Shown: piece after piece, positions 3,733 to 35,210 of the stretch
Numbering within the stretch: the stretch's first letter is position 1
Layout: the number at the start of each line of letters is the position of its first letter
Source of the DNA: Flavobacteriia bacterium
GTDB taxonomy: Bacteria; Bacteroidota; Bacteroidia; Flavobacteriales; Schleiferiaceae
NCBI GenBank assembly: GCA_013373425.1
Contig: JABXHW010000044.1
Coordinates: 1 to 54,155, forward strand
Direction of reading: 5' to 3'
Length of the DNA: 54,155 bases
Translations under genes and position numbers: made by a program
Notes under the pieces: model-generated
The model's database searches: none
What the model saw: the letters and a program-made list of their open reading frames with translations, nothing else
Told to the model about the DNA's origin: nothing

Positions 3733-4399
3733 AACAAAACTCATTGCCTTAACCGCATTCATGAGCTGCAGTGCTCTGCTAGTGGCTCAGTCTGAAGAAA
3801 CCGAAGGAGCTGACTTTATTTACGACGCTTCTTTTTCCTACCTGCTCGGAGATGTGCCAACCTTGGAGAACAAATGGTACAGCAACGGACATGCTTTTTC
3901 ATTCATGGGAGAAGCCAGAATGGGCAGTCATGCGGCATTTGGGTATGGATTGGGCTTGAGCGTTTATGTTCTTCACAACAACTTGAATTACACTAAGCCA
4001 GAAAGAGATGGGACCCCAGGCTTCAGCACATTTACCATTTCACCAGATAGCGCGGTGAATGTGAATGAGCAGATGCTAAATTACATTGATGTGCCGCTGG
4101 AATTTAGATTTCGGACTCGTCCAAATGAAAGAGGTAACGACTTCAATGTAACGATTGGTGCTCGAATCGGTTATCGCTACATGGGGAATGCATATCACCG
4201 TTCGGGCGATTATGCCATTCGTCAGTACCGTATTCTTGGAGAAAGCCGTTGGAGGCTCCAACCTTATGCAAGAATTGGCTGGGGTGAGTTTGCCTTGTTC
4301 GCGGGCCTTGATCTTCTATATAATCTGGAGCAATGGACGAGTACAGCGGGGGTCGGTAATTATAATATGGTGTCTGCTGGCCTTTCCATTCAACTTTAG
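3725..4399 (+). CDS. Outer-membrane beta-barrel protein of unknown function
   Basis: The 224-aa product starts at ATG 3725 with a signal peptide (IKTKLIALTAFMSCSALLVAQ region). The rest alternates short aromatic-rich beta strands and ends IQL, as in small PorT/OMP_b-brl type barrels. The start overlaps the stop of the preceding small gene. An earlier in-frame ATG at 3668 would place a charged 19-residue extension in front of the signal peptide and was not chosen. The gene converges on dprA and the two coding regions overlap by 4 bp. No substrate is apparent. Confidence 0.75.
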   Translation: MIKTKLIALTAFMSCSALLVAQSEETEGADFIYDASFSYLLGDVPTLENKWYSNGHAFSFMGEARMGSHAAFGYGLGLSVYVLHNNLNYTKPERDGTPGFSTFTISPDSAVNVNEQMLNYIDVPLEFRFRTRPNERGNDFNVTIGARIGYRYMGNAYHRSGDYAIRQYRILGESRWRLQPYARIGWGEFALFAGLDLLYNLEQWTSTAGVGNYNMVSAGLSIQL

Positions 4400-5493
4400 G
4401 ATAGTTCGTATTTCTTTCCTGGCCGGCTTCTAATTATTCCTCTCAGCTCTAGTCCAGTGAGGAGGACAAATAATTGTGAAATTGGGAATCCAGTCTTGGC
4501 GCTTAGAACGTCCACAGGTAGCCCGCCTTCCGACAGTTGGGTTATTATCTGTGCCTCTTCAGTTGAGAGGTCGATTGGAATCTCAATTTGTCGATTCACT
4601 TCTTCACCAGAGCTCGTCCAACCTAGTAAATCTGGGACGTCTTGAGGCTGTGTGAGTACATGCGCTTCATTATTCTTGATGAGAGCCAAACAGCCCGCGC
4701 TCTTTGCATCGCTTATTCGTCCCGGCAGGGCAAATACGTCTCTTTGGTAACTCGCTGCAATCTGACCTGTAATCAAGGCTCCTCCTTTAGCAGCAGCTTC
4801 AATGACCACGGTGGCGTCCGACATACCAGCCACGATTCTGTTTCTCCTTGGGAAATTGACCGCATCAGGATTGGTTCCTGACGGAAACTCGGTGATTAAG
4901 ATTCCTGCTTCTGAAATCGATTTAGCCAAGCTCGCATTCTTTCGCGGGTAGATTCGGTCCAAGCCGTGTCCCAATACTGCAGCAGTAGGAAGGTTATTTT
5001 CAAGAGCTTGTTGATGCGCAGTTGTATCTACACCCAAAGCCAAACCCGAGATGATTAGTGGCTGAAATAGCGCCCAGTCTTTAATGAGTTTTTGAGTGGC
5101 TGAACGTCCATAAGAGGTTTCCGATCGAGTGCCGACAACAGCCACAGTATAGGGCGGATTCAAATCACAAAGTCCTTTGCAATAGAGGAGTGTGGGAGAA
5201 TCCGGACATCTTCTCAGTCTTCTAGGAAACCCTTCTTGATTGAAGAATAGAATTTCGATGTTGTTCTCCAGGCAGTAGCGAAGCTCCTTTTCGGCGCGAT
5301 GCCAAACCTGGCTTGATCGGAGTGCATTAACACGTTCGCGACCCATGCCTGGCACTTTGGCGATAAGGTGAGACTTTTCCTTGAAAACTGCACGCGCTGA
5401 ACCGCAGTATTCCACAAGAGCCCGACCTATTACCGGCCCAATGAGGTCAACAAACGACAGGGCAATTTGAAATTGCTTTTCGTCTTCATCCAT
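4396..5493 (-). CDS. dprA: DNA-processing protein DprA
   Basis: DprA binds incoming single-stranded DNA during natural transformation and loads RecA. The 365-aa protein has the full layout: an N-terminal helix-hairpin-helix region (about 10-65), the Rossmann-like DprA/Smf domain (about 90-290), and a C-terminal winged helix (about 310-365). Diagnostic motifs are GTRSETSYG (121-129), ISGLALGVD (148-156) and FPRRNRIVAG (214-223). It lies 69 bp downstream of the SDR gene on the same strand and may be read from that promoter. No other competence genes are in view. Confidence 0.95.
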   Translation of the reverse strand: MDEDEKQFQIALSFVDLIGPVIGRALVEYCGSARAVFKEKSHLIAKVPGMGRERVNALRSSQVWHRAEKELRYCLENNIEILFFNQEGFPRRLRRCPDSPTLLYCKGLCDLNPPYTVAVVGTRSETSYGRSATQKLIKDWALFQPLIISGLALGVDTTAHQQALENNLPTAAVLGHGLDRIYPRKNASLAKSISEAGILITEFPSGTNPDAVNFPRRNRIVAGMSDATVVIEAAAKGGALITGQIAASYQRDVFALPGRISDAKSAGCLALIKNNEAHVLTQPQDVPDLLGWTSSGEEVNRQIEIPIDLSTEEAQIITQLSEGGLPVDVLSAKTGFPISQLFVLLTGLELRGIIRSRPGKKYELS

Positions 5494-28480: not shown

Positions 28481-29635
28481 CTATTCCATCCAAGACTTCC
28501 AATAGTCGTTATCACCGAGGTCAAGTGCCTCCTGTGTTAAACGAAGCGGCTTGAAAGTGTCGATCATAACAGCGAGTTCACCCGTCTCTTTCTGACCAAT
28601 ACTTCTCTCGTAAGCCCCAGGATGTGGTCCATGAGGTATTCCTGCAGGGTGAAGGGAGATATATCCTTTCTCTACGTGGTTTCTAGACATGAAGTCGCCG
28701 TCTACATAATACAGCACTTCATCGCTATCGATATTGCTGTGGTTGTACGGAGCTGGAATCGCCTGTGGATGGTAATCGTACAAGCGCGGTGCGAATGTGC
28801 AGATAACAAAATTCCATCCTTCAAATGTTTGGTGTACTGGTGGCGGTTGGTGAACTCGACCGGTAATAGGTTCGAAGTCGAGTGCTGAGAAAATGTACGG
28901 GAAGTTGTATCCGTCCCATCCTACTACATCGAATGGATGAGATCCGTACACTACTTGATGCATGGTATTTTCCTTGCGGATATACATCGTAAATTCTCCA
29001 ATCTCATCGTGCGTTTCTAGCTCATCCGGTAAGCGGAAGTCACGCTCACAGAAAGGACTGTGCTCGAGGAGCTGTCCGAAGTTATTTCTATATCGCTTTG
29101 GAGTGACGATGGGAGAGAAGCTCTCGGTAATTAGTAGTCGGTTGTCCTCTGTCTCAAATTCAATTTGATAAATCATTCCTCGAGGAACCACGATGTAATC
29201 TGCATAGCCAAACTCAAGATTGCCGAGCATGGTTCTGATCTTGCCTTTTCCTTTGTGAACGAAAATCACTTCATCCGCATCGGCGTTTTTGTAGAAGTAA
29301 TCACCTGTTCCTTTTCTCGGCGCAGCGAGCGTAATGTTCAAATCGTTATTGAACAATACCACTTTTCTACTCTCAAGGTAATCGTCTGCCGGCGGAACAT
29401 CCCAGCCTTTCAACATTCGAGAAGTGATGTTCTTGTCCACGGCAGCCTTTGGAGAAACGTCTTTCGACTCGCCGATTTGGGCGATCATCGTTGGGCGGTG
29501 AACGTGGTAAAGAAGGGAGGACACTCCGCTAAAGCCTTCTGTCCCGAACAGTTGTTCGTAGTAGAGACCTCCATCCGGCTTTTCGAAGACCGTATGGCGC
29601 TTATGTGGAATCTTGCCTAATTTATGGTAAAGCAT
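28481..29635 (-). CDS. hmgA: Homogentisate 1,2-dioxygenase
   Basis: Opens homogentisate to maleylacetoacetate. The 384-aa protein is a cupin-fold Fe(II) dioxygenase of the shorter bacterial type. The expected iron ligands are His299 (PYNHSN), Glu306 (SDEVLYY) and His335 (IPHGPHPG). With hppD it forms a two-gene tyrosine-degradation unit; fumarylacetoacetase and isomerase genes are not in the window. A -7 box lies 23-30 nt before the ATG. The region beyond holds a G-rich tract and a 187-bp repeat element. Confidence 0.95.
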   Translation of the reverse strand: MLYHKLGKIPHKRHTVFEKPDGGLYYEQLFGTEGFSGVSSLLYHVHRPTMIAQIGESKDVSPKAAVDKNITSRMLKGWDVPPADDYLESRKVVLFNNDLNITLAAPRKGTGDYFYKNADADEVIFVHKGKGKIRTMLGNLEFGYADYIVVPRGMIYQIEFETEDNRLLITESFSPIVTPKRYRNNFGQLLEHSPFCERDFRLPDELETHDEIGEFTMYIRKENTMHQVVYGSHPFDVVGWDGYNFPYIFSALDFEPITGRVHQPPPVHQTFEGWNFVICTFAPRLYDYHPQAIPAPYNHSNIDSDEVLYYVDGDFMSRNHVEKGYISLHPAGIPHGPHPGAYERSIGQKETGELAVMIDTFKPLRLTQEALDLGDNDYWKSWME

Positions 29636-29785: not shown

Positions 29786-29972
29786 GCCCGGGGCCAGCTC
29801 CCGCTGCCCCAGTTTCAAGATACGCACTATATCGCGTCTAGTCGTAGAGTAAACGTTTACTTACGCGTCAAGAAAAAGAAATGTGTGATTCACGCAGTTG
29901 CCATCTGAGATTTAGATTTTTGGATTAAGATTGCCGAACTTAATCTCGGGGCAGCGGGAGCTGGCCCCGGGC
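29786..29972. repeat. 187-bp inverted-repeat-bounded element, copy 1
   Basis: The element is bounded by a perfect 25-bp GC-rich inverted repeat (29786-29810 and 29948-29972; starts GCCCGGGGCCAGC, ends GCTGGCCCCGGGC). Inside are a 14-bp perfect palindrome AGTAAACGTTTACT, a hairpin TGTGTGATTCACGCA, and GATTAAG/CTTAATC flanking TTGCCGAA. A second copy of the same length lies at 35024-35210. By hand count the two are about 73% identical without gaps, with the right half much better conserved. No transposase or plausible protein is inside. It could be a non-autonomous mobile element, a REP-like repeat or a structured RNA. Confidence 0.85.
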
Positions 29973-30062
29973 ATTATCTCCGACTCCATCATCTCCCTTT
30001 GTTACCACAATGGTTGGCTTCATGGCTCTTTCAATCACTTGTGATTGACCTATAAAGGTCCA
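29973..30062. other. Intergenic spacer after repeat copy 1
   Basis: About 90 bp between the element and the terminator of the next gene. I see no coding frame or regulatory motif in it. Confidence 0.4.
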
Positions 30063-30096
30063 TAAAAAGAAAAGACCCCCACATTGTGGAGGTCTT
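30063..30096 (-). terminator. Terminator of the T9SS cargo gene at 30116-31795
   Basis: AAGACCCCCAC (30072-30082) pairs with GTGGAGGTCTT (30086-30096), with one mismatch, across a 3-nt loop. An A-rich run on the left gives the T tract for the minus strand. Confidence 0.85.
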
Positions 30097-30115
30097 ATCA
30101 GCAGGCGCGGATGCT

Positions 30116-31795
30116 TTACGGCTGTTTAATCCACTTCGTGGCAAACAATGCATCCGTTGTGCGCAAAATGTAGACACCAGGTGCGAGTGCCGTAGTGCGT
30201 ATTTGTGTTTTAGTTGATGCGCCAATGCGGCCTGTTAGTAATGCTCGACCGTTGATGTCGAGTATTTCAAAGTCAAATGAATCACCATGCGGATTCTCTA
30301 CATAGAGGTGCTCATCATCTTGACCAACGATGAGATCTAGTAAAGGGATTTCTACTTCTTCAACTCCAATGGTTTGATGAACAATCTGCAATTGGTCGAT
30401 TTCGGCACCAATGCTGTCGATGATGTTCATGAAGTTGGATGTATCTACCGTGCCCCATAGAGTGGCATATGCAAAAGTGATTTTCTCATTTGGGTCCCAA
30501 GTGAATGGTCCAGCCGAGCCAATCACGCGCTTGTCGTACGATTCGGCAGGCGACTCAAAGAAGTTGATATCTGCATTTGGAACTGCAGCCACCAATGGAT
30601 CGGGAGCGTAGGAATTGCCCGGGAAGATGAAGCTGGAAATGCCTGTAGCCACTGAAGGATTATGGCCATCACCGTTGTTCAAGCTGTTGAAGCCAGATGG
30701 ATTTTCAACCTTAATGAATGAGCCGTCTACCCATCTTCCCAGCATGTACATTCTGTAATGCGCATCCATCTGAGGTATGCGGTTGTGACCCACAAAAGTG
30801 TTGTTGTATCCCATGGAGGTTTGAAGGGTCGTAGGCTCTTCAATTCCGGCACTCGGATTTTCACTAATACAGTTGCCCTGGGCGTCAACAACACCATCAA
30901 CACATCCGTCCCAGTTATTATCTACGCCATCACCTACATCTGCGATTGGACCTTCAAGAATGGTCACTGCGCCCCAAGGTGATTTAGTGGGATAGGCAGG
31001 TCCTCCAGCATAAAGCGGGCTGTAAGGGTATGCGTAAACGGAGTGACGTTGGGCGTCGGTTCCGATGTTGTTTGCAAAGGCATCGCCTACATCCAAATCG
31101 GAGAACACACTTACCCAAGCCTCTTCATACGAGTTGGAAGAGGTATTCCACATTTCGTATTCGGTGAAAACTGCACGTTGCTCAACGCCCGTACCTTCTA
31201 CCATATAGTACCATGCGATTCCTTCCATCTGGAACGCCCAGTATTGATAAAATCCACGGTCGTTCCAATCATTGAATATGGCAATCGTGCTGATGTCGCC
31301 TTTAATTACCGGATAGTCTCCCATTGCTGGATCATAGCTGCCATCATTATCGACGTCAACATAAGGAGCTAATGATTGACGTTCTCCAAATTGGCTTCGG
31401 CCTTGTGTTGGCCAAGATTGAATAGGCTCGGGAATCGTGGTATAGAGTCCGTTTTTCAGACTGTCGACCATCCCTTTTGTGACCGTCCAAGTGCGATCCC
31501 AATGTTGAGTTGCTGATGGGTCTGTGGAGATCGGACCTGGATAAAAGTCGATTCTGGAGGCGCGGTATTCTTGAGCAGAAAGGTGGGCTATGGTGTCTGA
31601 ACCGTAGCTCGTTCCACTCATCCAAATGGTTTGTCTATAGGCGAATAAATTTCCATCGCCTTTGAGCTGATTCAGGTTCCCATCAGCCTGTACTTGATAC
31701 TTTGTTCTTTGAAAATGGACGGAATCGCCATTAGGATCAACCTGTGCAAGGCTAATCATGGGGACCATCCAAGCGAGGATAGCGAGTTTCTTCAT
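30116..31795 (-). CDS. T9SS cargo protein with Cys-bearing Asp/Asn-rich calcium-type motifs (paralog 1)
   Basis: A 559-aa exported protein with a signal peptide (1-17) and a C-terminal type A sorting domain (about 480-559; FEILDINGRALL, GVYILRT, KWIKQP). Two short Asp/Asn-rich loops look like Ca2+-binding motifs: DVDNDGSYDP (147-156) and DGVDNNWDGC (289-298), the latter paired with Cys309. Conserved blocks shared with its neighbour include FYPGPISTDP, GRSQFGE, GDYPVIKGDISTIA and NPSGF-NGDGH. It is about the same length as the gene at 31928-33604, and the two are tandem paralogs. Probably surface-exposed; function unknown. Confidence 0.85.
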   Translation of the reverse strand: MKKLAILAWMVPMISLAQVDPNGDSVHFQRTKYQVQADGNLNQLKGDGNLFAYRQTIWMSGTSYGSDTIAHLSAQEYRASRIDFYPGPISTDPSATQHWDRTWTVTKGMVDSLKNGLYTTIPEPIQSWPTQGRSQFGERQSLAPYVDVDNDGSYDPAMGDYPVIKGDISTIAIFNDWNDRGFYQYWAFQMEGIAWYYMVEGTGVEQRAVFTEYEMWNTSSNSYEEAWVSVFSDLDVGDAFANNIGTDAQRHSVYAYPYSPLYAGGPAYPTKSPWGAVTILEGPIADVGDGVDNNWDGCVDGVVDAQGNCISENPSAGIEEPTTLQTSMGYNNTFVGHNRIPQMDAHYRMYMLGRWVDGSFIKVENPSGFNSLNNGDGHNPSVATGISSFIFPGNSYAPDPLVAAVPNADINFFESPAESYDKRVIGSAGPFTWDPNEKITFAYATLWGTVDTSNFMNIIDSIGAEIDQLQIVHQTIGVEEVEIPLLDLIVGQDDEHLYVENPHGDSFDFEILDINGRALLTGRIGASTKTQIRTTALAPGVYILRTTDALFATKWIKQP

Positions 31796-31927
31796 TGTGT
31801 TAGTTCGTGTTGGCGTCGGCCAAGTAGCTACAATGAATACGGGCTAATGCCACACAAGGGTTGGTTCAAGTTAACAAATTGTATAGAATGAATTTGATTT
31901 TCTATACAGATAATTAGCTTTTCGATT

Positions 31928-33604
31928 CTAGAAGCGTACCCACTTGCGCACCCAATCACCAGAAATATCTTGAAGGATGTAGACTCCAGTTGGAAGATGA
32001 GTTACATCATAAGTCTTCTCTCCATTTCCAGCGACTGAGATTTGTCCCAACTCTCTTCCTGACAAATCCTTCAAGTAAAGTGTCGTAGGGGAGGACATAT
32101 CGTTGTGGATATGAAGCTGATTTTCGCTTTGCCCCAACCTAATTCGAAGTTTAGGTTGATTGATTTCTGTGCTTGAAAGGGATCCAGACGTTACAATGCC
32201 ACGAATTCCATCAATGTGAGCGTTAATGCTATCGAGAATGTTTCCATGAAACTGATGATCGATTCTGCCCGCGTATGTTGCTGAGATAAATGAAATCGCT
32301 TCGCCGTCTTCCCAAGTGAAAGGACCCATGCTGATGAATCCTTTGACGTCTTCTAATCCCCCGGGAGATTGAAACCAGTTGGTTGGGGATTGAGGCTCTA
32401 GGTGGCTTACAGGAGAAACGGTGTTTCCCGGATATATAAAGTTTGAAATGGGTCCAGATCCTCCAGGAACATGACCATCACCGTTAGCTGGATTTAAGAA
32501 TCCGCTCGGGTTTTCAATAATGATTGGAGTCCCATCCATAAATCGACCGGTGAGATAGTAATACACTTCTAAATCTGTTTGAGGAACTCCCGAAATTGGG
32601 CTGAATGAATTTATATAAGACATGGTGGAAGACAAGGCGATTCGTTCACGGATGTTATTTGTTGAGTCTTCCTGAATACATATGCCATTCGAATCGAGAA
32701 CGCCATCAATGCACCCGTCCCAATCATTGTCCAAGCCATCAAAGTAGTCGGCTTCAGGGCCTTGAATTAAAACTGTTCCAGAATACGGAGTCTTTGGGTA
32801 GAGTCCATTCTGAGTGCTGTCTACCGGGTAAGCATCATATGCGAAAAGAGCCTGTCTTCCAACATCGGTCATGATGAGGTCATTTGGAGACCAGCCACAA
32901 TCCATATCTGCAAAGTTGGATAGGTAAGTATCTGAATAATCTTGCCCCGACCTATTAAACAGAACGACCTCTTTGAAAAGTGTATTCTTCAAGTTCGAGG
33001 TTGGATTGAAAGCAAAGAACATGGCATAGCCTTCAATGTGCATTCTTCGACCTGAGGTGTCGATTGACCCAGCTGTGCTGTCGTTAAAAAGGGCGATGGT
33101 TGAGATGTCTCCTTTTATCAAAGGATAGTCTCCTCCCATTGGATCATAATATCCGTTGTTATTCGCATCCACAAAAGGGGCAAGGTTATAGGATTCGCCG
33201 AATTGCGAACGCCCGTGAGCGGGCCATGAACGAATTTCAATTGGAGGTATGAAGTAATATCCCTGAAGGAAACTGTCGACCATGGTTTTTCTTACCGTCC
33301 AAGTTCTAGCATAGAACGAAGTAGAGTTTGGATCTGACGAAATGGGACCAGGAAAAAAGTTCTCTCTGAAGCTGTACATCTGTCCAGAAATCCTCAATTC
33401 TCCAGTAGAGGCAAACCCGCCGACTAGGCTAGTTTCAGTGTAAGTGTAAATCGTGTCATTGATGCTAACAAAGTCATTCCTGCCTGTGGGCTTGACTGTA
33501 TAGCTGAGTTCACCTATGCGAATGGTATCGCCTGGAAATTGGAACTGAGCTTGACTAGAGTAAAATGCACAAAGCAGTGCAAAGAGTGCGAACGTCCGTA
33601 GCAT
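31928..33604 (-). CDS. T9SS cargo protein with Cys-bearing Asp/Asn-rich calcium-type motifs (paralog 2)
   Basis: A 558-aa tandem paralog of the preceding gene, with a signal peptide (1-19) and a C-terminal sorting domain (LYLKDLSGRELG, GVYILQD, final KWVRF). It shares FFPGPISSDP, GRSQFGES, GDYPLIKGDIST, NPSGFLNP and NGDGH. The acidic loop DGLDNDWDGC sits at exactly the same residues (289-298), again followed by Cys309. The N-terminal 80 residues differ more. The 132-bp gap between the two genes has no clear terminator. No catalytic motif was recognised. Confidence 0.85.
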   Translation of the reverse strand: MLRTFALFALLCAFYSSQAQFQFPGDTIRIGELSYTVKPTGRNDFVSINDTIYTYTETSLVGGFASTGELRISGQMYSFRENFFPGPISSDPNSTSFYARTWTVRKTMVDSFLQGYYFIPPIEIRSWPAHGRSQFGESYNLAPFVDANNNGYYDPMGGDYPLIKGDISTIALFNDSTAGSIDTSGRRMHIEGYAMFFAFNPTSNLKNTLFKEVVLFNRSGQDYSDTYLSNFADMDCGWSPNDLIMTDVGRQALFAYDAYPVDSTQNGLYPKTPYSGTVLIQGPEADYFDGLDNDWDGCIDGVLDSNGICIQEDSTNNIRERIALSSTMSYINSFSPISGVPQTDLEVYYYLTGRFMDGTPIIIENPSGFLNPANGDGHVPGGSGPISNFIYPGNTVSPVSHLEPQSPTNWFQSPGGLEDVKGFISMGPFTWEDGEAISFISATYAGRIDHQFHGNILDSINAHIDGIRGIVTSGSLSSTEINQPKLRIRLGQSENQLHIHNDMSSPTTLYLKDLSGRELGQISVAGNGEKTYDVTHLPTGVYILQDISGDWVRKWVRF

Positions 33605-33662
33605 AAGAGAGAGATTAGAGTGTTACATCTAAGTAACGAAAATCTCCCGTGCTGAGGTTGGG

Positions 33663-34697
33663 CTATGCCTTGTTGAACCGTTTAGTTCGGCCCTCAGCGG
33701 CCCACTGCTTTCGAATTTCCTCTTGATCTTCTTCAGGTAAATGGATGATTTCCTGACATTCATCTGAACATGTGCCCTCGTACTTTTCAGCACATTCGTC
33801 ACACTGAATAAGTAGCAAGTTACACGCAACATTCGCACAGTTCGTATGCGTGTCGCACGGTTTGCCACATTGGTGACATCTAGAAATCACATCTTCAGAA
33901 ATGTGTTCACCAAGTCGATCGTCGAATACAAAGTTCTTCCCTTTGAACTTGTTGGGTAGTTCTTCCTCCTTAATCTGACGGGCATAGTCTATGATTCCGC
34001 CGTGAAGTTGGTTGACGTTTTCGAAGCCGTGGTGTTTCAGATAAGCACTGGTTTTCTCACAGCGAATTCCACCTGTACAATAAAGAAGAATAGGCTTGTC
34101 TTTTTGGTCTTTGAGCTTGTCGAGCACCTCTGGTAGCTCTTCACGGAAGGTTTCCGCATCAGGAAGAACTGCGCCATCAAAGTGACCAATTTCGCTCTCG
34201 TAGTGATTTCGCATATCCACCACGATTGCATCACCGGCCTCCATGAGTTCATTCCACTCCTTCGCAGTGAGATGTCGGCCTACGTTTGTAACGTCATATT
34301 CGGTATCTGGAAGTCCGTCCGCTACAATTTGCTTTCGAACTTTCACCATCAGTTTTAAGAACGACTTGCCATCGTCCTCTACTGCGATCTTAAAAGGAAC
34401 ATCTTTGAACTCTTCGAAGGCGTATAGCTCCTTTACGAACTGATCCCAATTGTGCTCTGGAACATTCATTTGAGCATTAATTCCTTCGCGTGCGATGTAG
34501 ATTCGACCCAAGCAATTTAAGTCGTCCCACATGGCATAAAGTCGGTCGCGCATCCCTTCAACATCTTCAATAATCACATATCGGTAGAAGGAAACAGTGC
34601 GACGTGTAAAGTCTTCAGCATCAAGACGCTGTTGAAGCTCTTCTCTGCTGTAGCGATTGTACAAGAAACGTTTTTTCTTCTTTGGTGATTCTTCCAT
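33663..34697 (-). CDS. trhO: tRNA uridine-5-oxyacetic-acid pathway hydroxylase TrhO (rhodanese family)
   Basis: TrhO (YceA) makes 5-hydroxyuridine at the tRNA wobble position using O2. The 344-aa protein has the N-terminal ferredoxin-like domain, the rhodanese domain with the Cys-containing loop [10 protein letters not shown] (Cys207 and Cys213), and a C-terminal Cys-rich region of CxxC-type pairs ([21 protein letters not shown]) likely to bind zinc. The start is ATG 34697: a -7 box at 34719-34726 places the RNA start after the alternative TTG at 34721. Confidence 0.9.
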
Positions 34698-34718
34698 GAC
34701 CGTCTCAATTTGAGAGTG

Positions 34719-34726
34719 CAAAGGTA
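34719..34726 (-). promoter_or_regulatory. -7 box for trhO
   Basis: The minus strand reads TACCTTTG, an exact match, predicting a leader of about 15 nt to ATG 34697. It overlaps the alternative TTG start. Confidence 0.55.
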
Positions 34727-35023
34727 CTGCTATTCTTTAGGAAAACACTGATGAAAGTCATGTGAGGAAGGTGGACTAGTGGAGAACTGGATGGCTGGAC
34801 AACTGGACAACTGGACAACTGGATGCCTGGAATGCTGGAGGACTAGATAACTGGAGGATTGGAGTGTTGGGCAGAGAGCGGATGGAGGGCTGGGTTGCTA
34901 GAGTACAAGACGAATAAACAGATGTAAAGACAATACGGAGGGAGGGTGGAGGTTACATAGGGAAGTAGACGATCTACCTACGTGTTCACCTGCTCACGTG
35001 CAAGCTTGCCCATGTGAATGCTT
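34727..35023. repeat. Low-complexity G-rich tandem tract with CTGGACAA repeats
   Basis: Between trhO and the second 187-bp element lies about 200 bp of degenerate TGGA-rich units. At 34795-34818 the unit CTGGACAA is repeated three times exactly, followed by CTGGATGC. The tract then fades through GGAGG-rich sequence to about 34960. It is unlikely to be coding. Confidence 0.7.
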
Positions 35024-35210
35024 GCCCGGGGCGCGTACCCGCGACCCCGCTATCAAGTTATTAAGAGAGATTCCAGTAGCCGGAGGATAAACGTTTACTT
35101 TCGGCTTCAAATAAATTTTTGCGTGATTCACGCAATTGCCTGATGAGATTCGGACTTTCGGAATTAGAATGCCGAACTTAATCTCGGGGCAGCGGGAGCT
35201 GGCCCCGGGC
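35024..35210. repeat. 187-bp inverted-repeat-bounded element, copy 2
   Basis: It has the same length and orientation as copy 1. The right 25-bp arm (35186-35210) is identical to copy 1. The left arm (35024-35048) has six changes that leave about 19 of 25 positions complementary. Internal features are the TAAACGTTTA palindrome, now enclosed by AGCCG/CGGCT, a perfect TGCGTGATTCACGCA hairpin, and TGCCGAACTTAATCTC before the right arm. Both copies are followed by ATTA. Located between the divergent trhO and threonine dehydrogenase genes. Confidence 0.85.

Follow-up and report, generated by a model that had tools for sequence, protein, structure and literature searches.

A repeat family scattered through one Flavobacteriales genus carries a putative promoter of DNA-uptake and recombination genes

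Introduction

Two groups of short repeats are closest in kind to the family described here: the Correia elements (CREE/NEMIS) of the naturally transformable genus Neisseria, of which CREE duplicates a TA target, and the BOX repeats of Streptococcus pneumoniae, which contain a variable number of middle modules and stand with RUP and SPRITE among the small repeats of that species. We know of no competence operator in either CREE or BOX. In other phyla, the competence regulons governed by ComK, ComX or CRP-S include ssb, radC, comM and comEA-like genes. Excerpts of the published accounts describe CREE/NEMIS as short repeats whose ends are inverted and whose conserved core can create a promoter at one end or at both (PMC2649163), and BOX and similar sequences as small interspersed repeats of the competent S. 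pneumoniae (PMC3049150). Here we analyze a pair of 187-bp elements in a stretch of 54,155 nucleotides (the window) from contig JABXHW010000044.1 of a Flavobacteriia bacterium of the family Schleiferiaceae (GCA_013373425.1; 3.09 Mb in 76 contigs; the source genome), together with two other species of its genus, G001 and G002. Sequence comparison assigns both stretches to a family of small repeats dispersed across the genomes of this one genus. We consider it somewhat better than an even call that the element is a short repeat resembling a miniature inverted-repeat transposable element (MITE), carrying the complete promoter of the genus's regulon for DNA uptake and recombination, and that the regulator would most likely be a competence activator.

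Results

The two window copies belong to a repeat family

Sequence comparison delimits copy 1 (29786..29972, + strand) and copy 2 (35024..35210, + strand). As the first-pass annotation had reported, both are 187 bp long, share one orientation, match without gaps at 136 of 187 positions and are followed directly on the 3' side by ATTA. It had also found no believable protein in either, and we agree, because the differences spread over all three codon positions (15, 16 and 20) and the longest stop-free runs reach only 40 and 62 codons.

The proposal of an element family with a fixed layout is borne out by many further copies in the source genome, found by sequence search and by a covariance model. 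Copy 1 matched 44 pieces. We fetched 23 places with their flanks and aligned 20 of them with the two window copies (n = 22), leaving out L023, whose right half is unalignable, and L026 and L027, which hold a single motif only. The covariance model built from these 22 copies found 24 full-length places with E < 1e-20, of which 22 had gone into the model, plus 14 weaker or partial places, counting each place once and excluding five gene-promoter sites. Given the 44 pieces and the 24 full-length places, the window pair is not a chance resemblance. The fixed length noted for the pair does not extend to the family, whose copies range from 177 to 191 bp, mostly because one subfamily has a shorter interior. 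Over a set of 40 relatives, the model matched the source genome and two congeneric species, in which the copies are diverged; it matched none of 22 genomes from other genera of the family and none of 15 from other families of the order.

Element sites are mostly intergenic: by a simple caller of open reading frames (ORFs), 82 of 93 rows in our site table lie outside ORFs of at least 90 codons and 11 do not. Among these rows are the radC gene site (L099) and, for one site (L093), both strands; two duplicate L084 rows were removed ahead of the counts. The loci L011, L087 and L089 in the source genome, L185, L186, L188 and L197-L200 in G001, and L212 and L232 in G002 have no row. Short, non-coding and dispersed in many copies, the repeat has these traits of a MITE.

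A promoter layout inside the element

The best-conserved internal block of the element is TAGYCGnAnnnTAAACGTTTACTTACG. Read inverted, the interior presents the promoter layout GTAAACGTTTA-N5-CGACT-N17/18-TAACTTGA, directed outward through the left hairpin. Reverse-complemented, the conserved left block ATCAAGTTAC reads GTAACTTGAT, a -7-type box 17 or 18 nt past CGACT, which we take to be the Bacteroidetes -7 box TAnnTTTG. In 70 of 93 rows, exactly 11 nt separate the core of this box from the hairpin's GGGG, so that the predicted transcript would begin with the hairpin. The elements thereby combine the operator and the -7-type box at fixed spacing that characterize the genus's DNA-uptake promoter class. 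This internal promoter, common to DNA-uptake and recombination genes, is the main content of the repeat and had been overlooked in the first-pass annotation.

Copy 1 has the putative operator GTAAACGTTTA-CTCTA-CGACT on the minus strand (29840..29860), with no mismatch. It is followed after 17 nt by the -7-like box TATCTTGA (29815..29822, -) and then by the left-end hairpin (29786..29810, -), which reads outward as GGGGCAGC-GGGA-GCTGGCCCC and then GGGC and is the predicted 5' end of a leftward transcript, its start site being placed by this layout. The corresponding features of copy 2, also on the minus strand, are the putative operator GTAAACGTTTA-TCCTC-CGGCT (35078..35098), with one mismatch, the -7-like box TAACTTGA (35053..35060), again 17 nt past the operator, and a predicted left-end hairpin of the GGGGTCGCGGGTACGCGCCCC type (35024..35048). 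A score matrix built from 12 gene promoters and four ssb promoters gave 26.1 for copy 1 and 24.2 for copy 2; the next best score on either strand of the 54-kb window was -0.6.

The right half has the layout TGAGATTC-N22-GAACTTGA-N3-GGGG and may hold a second promoter. On the plus strand, the alignment gives a conserved block, TGAGATTT in copy 1 (29906..29913) and TGAGATTC in copy 2 (35144..35151), and a right inner block GAACTTAA in both (29936..29943, where it mirrors the left -7-like box, and 35174..35181), followed by the predicted right-end hairpins (29948..29972 and 35186..35210, +). Most source-genome copies also have an TGNGTGAWTCACNCA-like palindrome in this half, represented by TGTGTGATTCACGCA in copy 1 (29882..29896, +) and TGCGTGATTCACGCA in copy 2 (35120..35134, +); by eye it is absent from the G001 and G002 copies compared.

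The same site precedes DNA-uptake and recombination genes

With at most one mismatch, the pattern GTAAACGTTTA-N5-CGACT occurs at 25, 8 and 42 sites in the three genomes of the genus, and the reversed pattern, used as a control, at none. Sites overlapped by model matches were counted as elements, except the comM, HHH, DUF2851 and radC sites, which were matched weakly or partly. Fourteen sites lie outside elements, 12 of them 23-47 nt upstream of a gene start. These genes are comM/yifB, a ComEA-like HHH gene, DUF2851 and radC in the source genome; a two-gene HHH-like operon in G001; and yraN, comM, the HHH-like operon, a 23S_rRNA_IVP four-helix protein, HHH, radC and recJ in G002. The site is thus present in two species each for comM, HHH and radC. 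The other two sites (L182, L183) have no nearby gene start and apparently lie within coding sequence.

The HHH-like operon encodes two proteins and has the promoter in all three species; in the source genome (L082:4316-6932), its site has three mismatches to an earlier element-derived pattern. Its second protein contains an HHH-like segment by eye and has no match in Pfam. The operon is divergent from a long gene that reads by eye like a LytS-type sensor kinase, and we regard the operon and this gene as candidate DNA-uptake genes and regulator. An alignment of promoters from 12 genes, with the source-genome copy of this operon included and the source-genome radC left out, shows CGACT-N18-YA in nine of the 12; the source-genome radC promoter reads CGACT-N18-CACCTTTG. 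According to an excerpt of a study of Riemerella anatipestifer, transposon hits in yifB and in an HHH protein lowered or abolished transformation (PMC8459023); this HHH protein may be an ortholog of the one in the genus.

Beyond the genus, the exact pattern AGYCGNANNNTAAACGTTTACTTACG was sought in one genome per species (84,980 species, a scan that perhaps did not include the source genome) and hit four stretches: one in a Saprospiraceae metagenome-assembled genome, two in different Niabella species and one in a contig labelled Verrucomicrobia. Each immediately precedes ssb, always in the same orientation, and the SSB domain was confirmed; three of the four have CACCTTTG or CATCTTTG at the -7 position. 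Both Niabella records (L122:5358-5701 and L124:1657-1930) have an interrupted ssb reading frame, perhaps owing to sequencing errors. Because the same promoter precedes 12 genes of the genus and ssb in four other genomes, the repeat appears to carry the promoter of a DNA-uptake and recombination regulon. Gene identities and -7 spacing are the independent part of this evidence.

We rejected a phylum-wide motif: of 395 genomes, 13 besides the source genome yielded a single hit apiece, which does not exceed the yield of the reversed control (neither G001 nor G002 was listed). The pattern GTAAACGTTTA-N5-CGACT, again with at most one mismatch, gave two hits in 57 genomes from other genera of the family, against seven for its reversed control, and viral contigs had no match to AGYCGNANNNTAAACGTTTACTTACG.

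Ends of the element

The first-pass annotation had described a 25-bp terminal inverted repeat. In copy 1 the outer arms are indeed complementary at 25 of 25 positions, and in copy 2 at 19; as a general trait the repeat does not stand, since arms reach at least 20 of 25 in only six of the 22 copies. Its alternative of a REP-like family (REP, repetitive extragenic palindrome) is supported by the ends, with a GGGG-stem-loop-CCCC hairpin predicted at each end in all 22 copies. These hairpins form from differing sequences: the left ends of the three genomes comprise 77 distinct sequences among 86, and 73 of the 86 fold more than one standard deviation better than their shuffled letters.

A structured RNA, also suggested earlier, finds little backing. 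The named internal helices show few compensatory changes, and the RNAalifold covariation term is +0.16. We rejected an RNA gene as the principal interpretation because Rfam has no match in the window, RNAalifold recovers only terminal pairs, nearly all invariant, and the helices covary weakly.

On either side of the element, the strand read outward is rich in C and poor in G over some 200 nt (C exceeds G on the left in 19 of 21 copies and on the right in 20 of 21), which resembles a Rho site. A cruder midpoint measure found this flank symmetry in 10 of the 26 long gaps that contain an element and in none of the five that do not, a small control. The flank and duplication tests omit L013, whose contig ends at the element.

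Spread and the search for a mobility enzyme

Copies cluster by genome. On a tree of copies, the genome labels require 12 changes, against a mean of 33.5 and a minimum of 27 in 200 shuffles, and the nearest neighbor of 76 of the 86 copies lies in the same genome, which points to spread within lineages. The earlier idea of a non-autonomous mobile element fits this spread; neither a target duplication at 21 copies nor, among Y1 transposases and tyrosine recombinases genome-wide, an enzyme with matching ends was found. In our interpretation the element would be mobile.

At some loci the genes on one flank or on both are the same between species, which could mean inheritance. When seven such locus pairs were tested, only L028-L202 ranked first for similarity in the other genome. 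At least three pairs (L028-L202, window copy 2-L189 and L093-L187) differ by eye in how the element is oriented against the genes. This pattern fits spread inside each lineage with favored intervals.

Searches for Y1 transposases, the family of the REP-associated tyrosine transposases (RAYTs), found one gene over the family cut-off in the source genome, three in G002 and only a weak partial match in G001. A check for a RAYT with matching ends had been proposed, and the link is not supported for the ends: the sole source-genome gene (L100:1190-1480) is flanked by different palindromes, with GCATCGGGTGGKAACCCGATG ahead of it, and has a degenerate promoter-like copy upstream (score -3.1). Its protein scores 52 bits for the IS200 family of NCBIfam, where the cut-off is 55, and 32.3 for REP-Tyr, where it is 80. 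In G002, each of the three Y1 genes (L115, L117, L119) lies by eye within its own palindrome array, the palindrome differing from array to array; by eye these are RAYT/REP-like systems of separate families in one genome. A RAYT flanked by the same palindrome as the element, as in REPIN/BIME systems, was not found by eye. An autonomous parent did not turn up among six partial or short matches (L191, L233, L095, L087, L093, L234), which show by eye no transposase gene between two ends. We also rejected an integron or recombinase site: an integrase lies on one motif contig, but its neighbors read by eye as those of a chromosomal xerD.

Surroundings of the window copies

The predicted copy 1 promoter would target an HgmA-like gene (28481..29635, -), which starts about 150 bp from the element, and that of copy 2 a UPF0176/rhodanese gene (33663..34721, -), which starts about 300 bp away. 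Beside copy 2 lies a degenerate 8-bp minisatellite of TGGACAAC-like units (34780-34864), and locus-specific micro-repeats of similar kind are seen by eye beside other copies. Two adjacent genes at 30116-33604 encode proteins of 559 and 558 amino acids without a Pfam family; they look like paralogs, because both match one G001 protein, at 39-42% identity. The window also contains a dprA gene with DprA and winged-helix domains (4396-5493), without the operator.

Discussion

In our interpretation, the operator in each element would serve as a binding site for whatever regulates the DNA-uptake genes (most likely a competence activator), and transcription would start outward through the left end into the adjoining DNA. 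From right to left, the element would consist of the right hairpin, the GAACTTGA box, the TGAGATTC block and the minus-strand operator GTAAACGTTTA-N5-CGACT, and onward of a 17- or 18-nt spacer, the -7-type box TAACTTGA, 3 nt and the GGGG...CCCC hairpin that would form the first part of the transcript. As copies spread within each species, they would place extra regulator sites and regulated transcription starts beside many genes. The gene set suggests that competence, rather than DNA damage, controls this promoter.

Several observations weigh against this interpretation. Element-derived patterns were used to find the gene promoters, which makes the matrix score partly circular in its operator part. 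The spacer is 17 nt in 11 of the 22 source-genome copies, one base short of the 18 nt in gene promoters, and a -7-like box is mirrored at the right end, so that the ends may account for its retention. The next gene runs in the same direction as the site in 46 of 81 cases, against 42 of 81 if the sites are flipped, showing no overall bias; tandem regions read with and against the genes number 12 and 4 in the source genome, 1 and 3 in G001, and 9 and 11 in G002, and with no general bias in these counts we rejected an orientation selected for driving neighbors. The shared flanking genes noted above count on the same side. In the test for a target site duplication at 21 copies, the mean repeat was 0.71, against 0.88 with shuffled flanks, which gives no sign of one, and the genome-wide search of Y1 transposases and tyrosine recombinases found none with matching ends. 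In the matrix scan, no site points at dprA or comEC; an element near the G001 dprA (score -2.3) is directed away. The best site for the short ssb gene lies just upstream of the gene in all three species, with scores of 11.9, -8.1 and -4.6; the latter two, from G001 and G002, do not exceed the -4.3 scored some 930 nt away from the G001 long ssb, and for these two species the support therefore comes from position more than from score.

A bolder version, which we hold as speculative, is that a mobile repeat took over the host's natural-transformation promoter. The entry of single-stranded DNA would then set the time of the repeat's transcription and perhaps of its mobilization by a single-strand transposase, and its spread would rewire new genes into the competence programme. 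It is unlikely, though plausible on gene content, that the mobile promoter instead belongs to a DNA-damage (SOS-like) regulon with a diverged operator. According to an excerpt of a survey, some Bacteroidetes have ssb and radC under SOS control, and SOS motifs that have diverged occur in the phylum (PMC8565304), so the regulon may answer DNA damage instead of competence; recJ and radC, moreover, are DNA-repair genes by family. The two main motifs in that part of the survey, CTAA-N5-TTAG and GGA-N5-TCC, differ by eye from GTAAACGTTTA-N5-CGACT, and for this reason we set LexA/SOS aside as the principal interpretation while keeping it as a rival. The comM and ComEA-like HHH sites, in two species each, point to DNA uptake; in Riemerella, yifB and a possibly orthologous HHH protein affect transformation. 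Rather unlikely, in our judgment, is a REP/BIME-type element, in which two inverted REP hairpins are moved by a RAYT or IS200-like single-strand transposase and the interior is passive. The hairpin ends are in inverted orientation, Y1 genes are present in the source genome and G002, and the source-genome gene has its degenerate operator-like site; but the palindromes around the Y1 genes are by eye unlike the element ends, the source-genome protein is below both cut-offs, and G001 has elements with only the weak partial Y1 match. The interior blocks also recur in order in three species, which indicates that the interior is not passive.

That the copies serve mainly as an operator reservoir, titrating the DNA-uptake regulator and so setting a threshold while no transcript matters, strikes us as improbable. 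Element sites do outnumber gene sites (35 of 42 against 7 in G002), and the unbiased orientation agrees with titration, but there would then be no need to keep the -7-type box and its spacing, or the start-site hairpin, although the ends could partly explain these. We give little credence to short regulatory RNA genes of the same regulon, with a 5' hairpin and a C-rich, G-poor, Rho-ended tail. The flank composition and the hairpin at the predicted 5' end suit them; the tail would differ at every copy, however, and both the weak helix covariation and the empty Rfam search speak against them. Least probable of all, we think, are old, immobile promoter elements inherited in place. Several loci share flanking genes between species as this requires, but copies cluster by genome, a single shared-flank pair of seven ranks first for similarity, and the element is by eye turned in at least three pairs.

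Our preferred interpretation, a MITE-like repeat that would carry the promoter of the DNA-uptake regulon, offers a concrete candidate operator and promoter for the DNA-uptake genes of one genus, and for ssb in other lineages, with which the regulator could be found by pull-down. The literature we surveyed, in part, gives no operator or regulator for DNA-uptake genes in Bacteroidota, and among publications containing TAAACGTTTA none, judged by title and the start of the abstract, concerns this subject. A promoter that a repeat family has carried to dozens of places would be a direct route for the rewiring of a regulon.

Set beside CREE/NEMIS by description, the element is likewise a short repeat with inverted ends and a conserved core that would make a promoter. 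Here, however, each end is a local hairpin rather than part of a strict terminal repeat, and the promoter is common to DNA-uptake genes. It shares with BOX, RUP and SPRITE the character of small interspersed repeats, which in their case belong to a competent species. Like REPIN/BIME, it has a pair of inverted short palindromes bounding a short segment, in a genus that has Y1 genes with REP-like arrays; it differs in having no RAYT with matching palindromes, in stems that vary within one genome and in a long conserved interior with a promoter. In gene content (ssb, radC, comM, comEA-like), the putative regulon resembles those of ComK, ComX and CRP-S, whereas its operator GTAAACGTTTA-N5-CGACT is, to our knowledge, none of their consensus sites.

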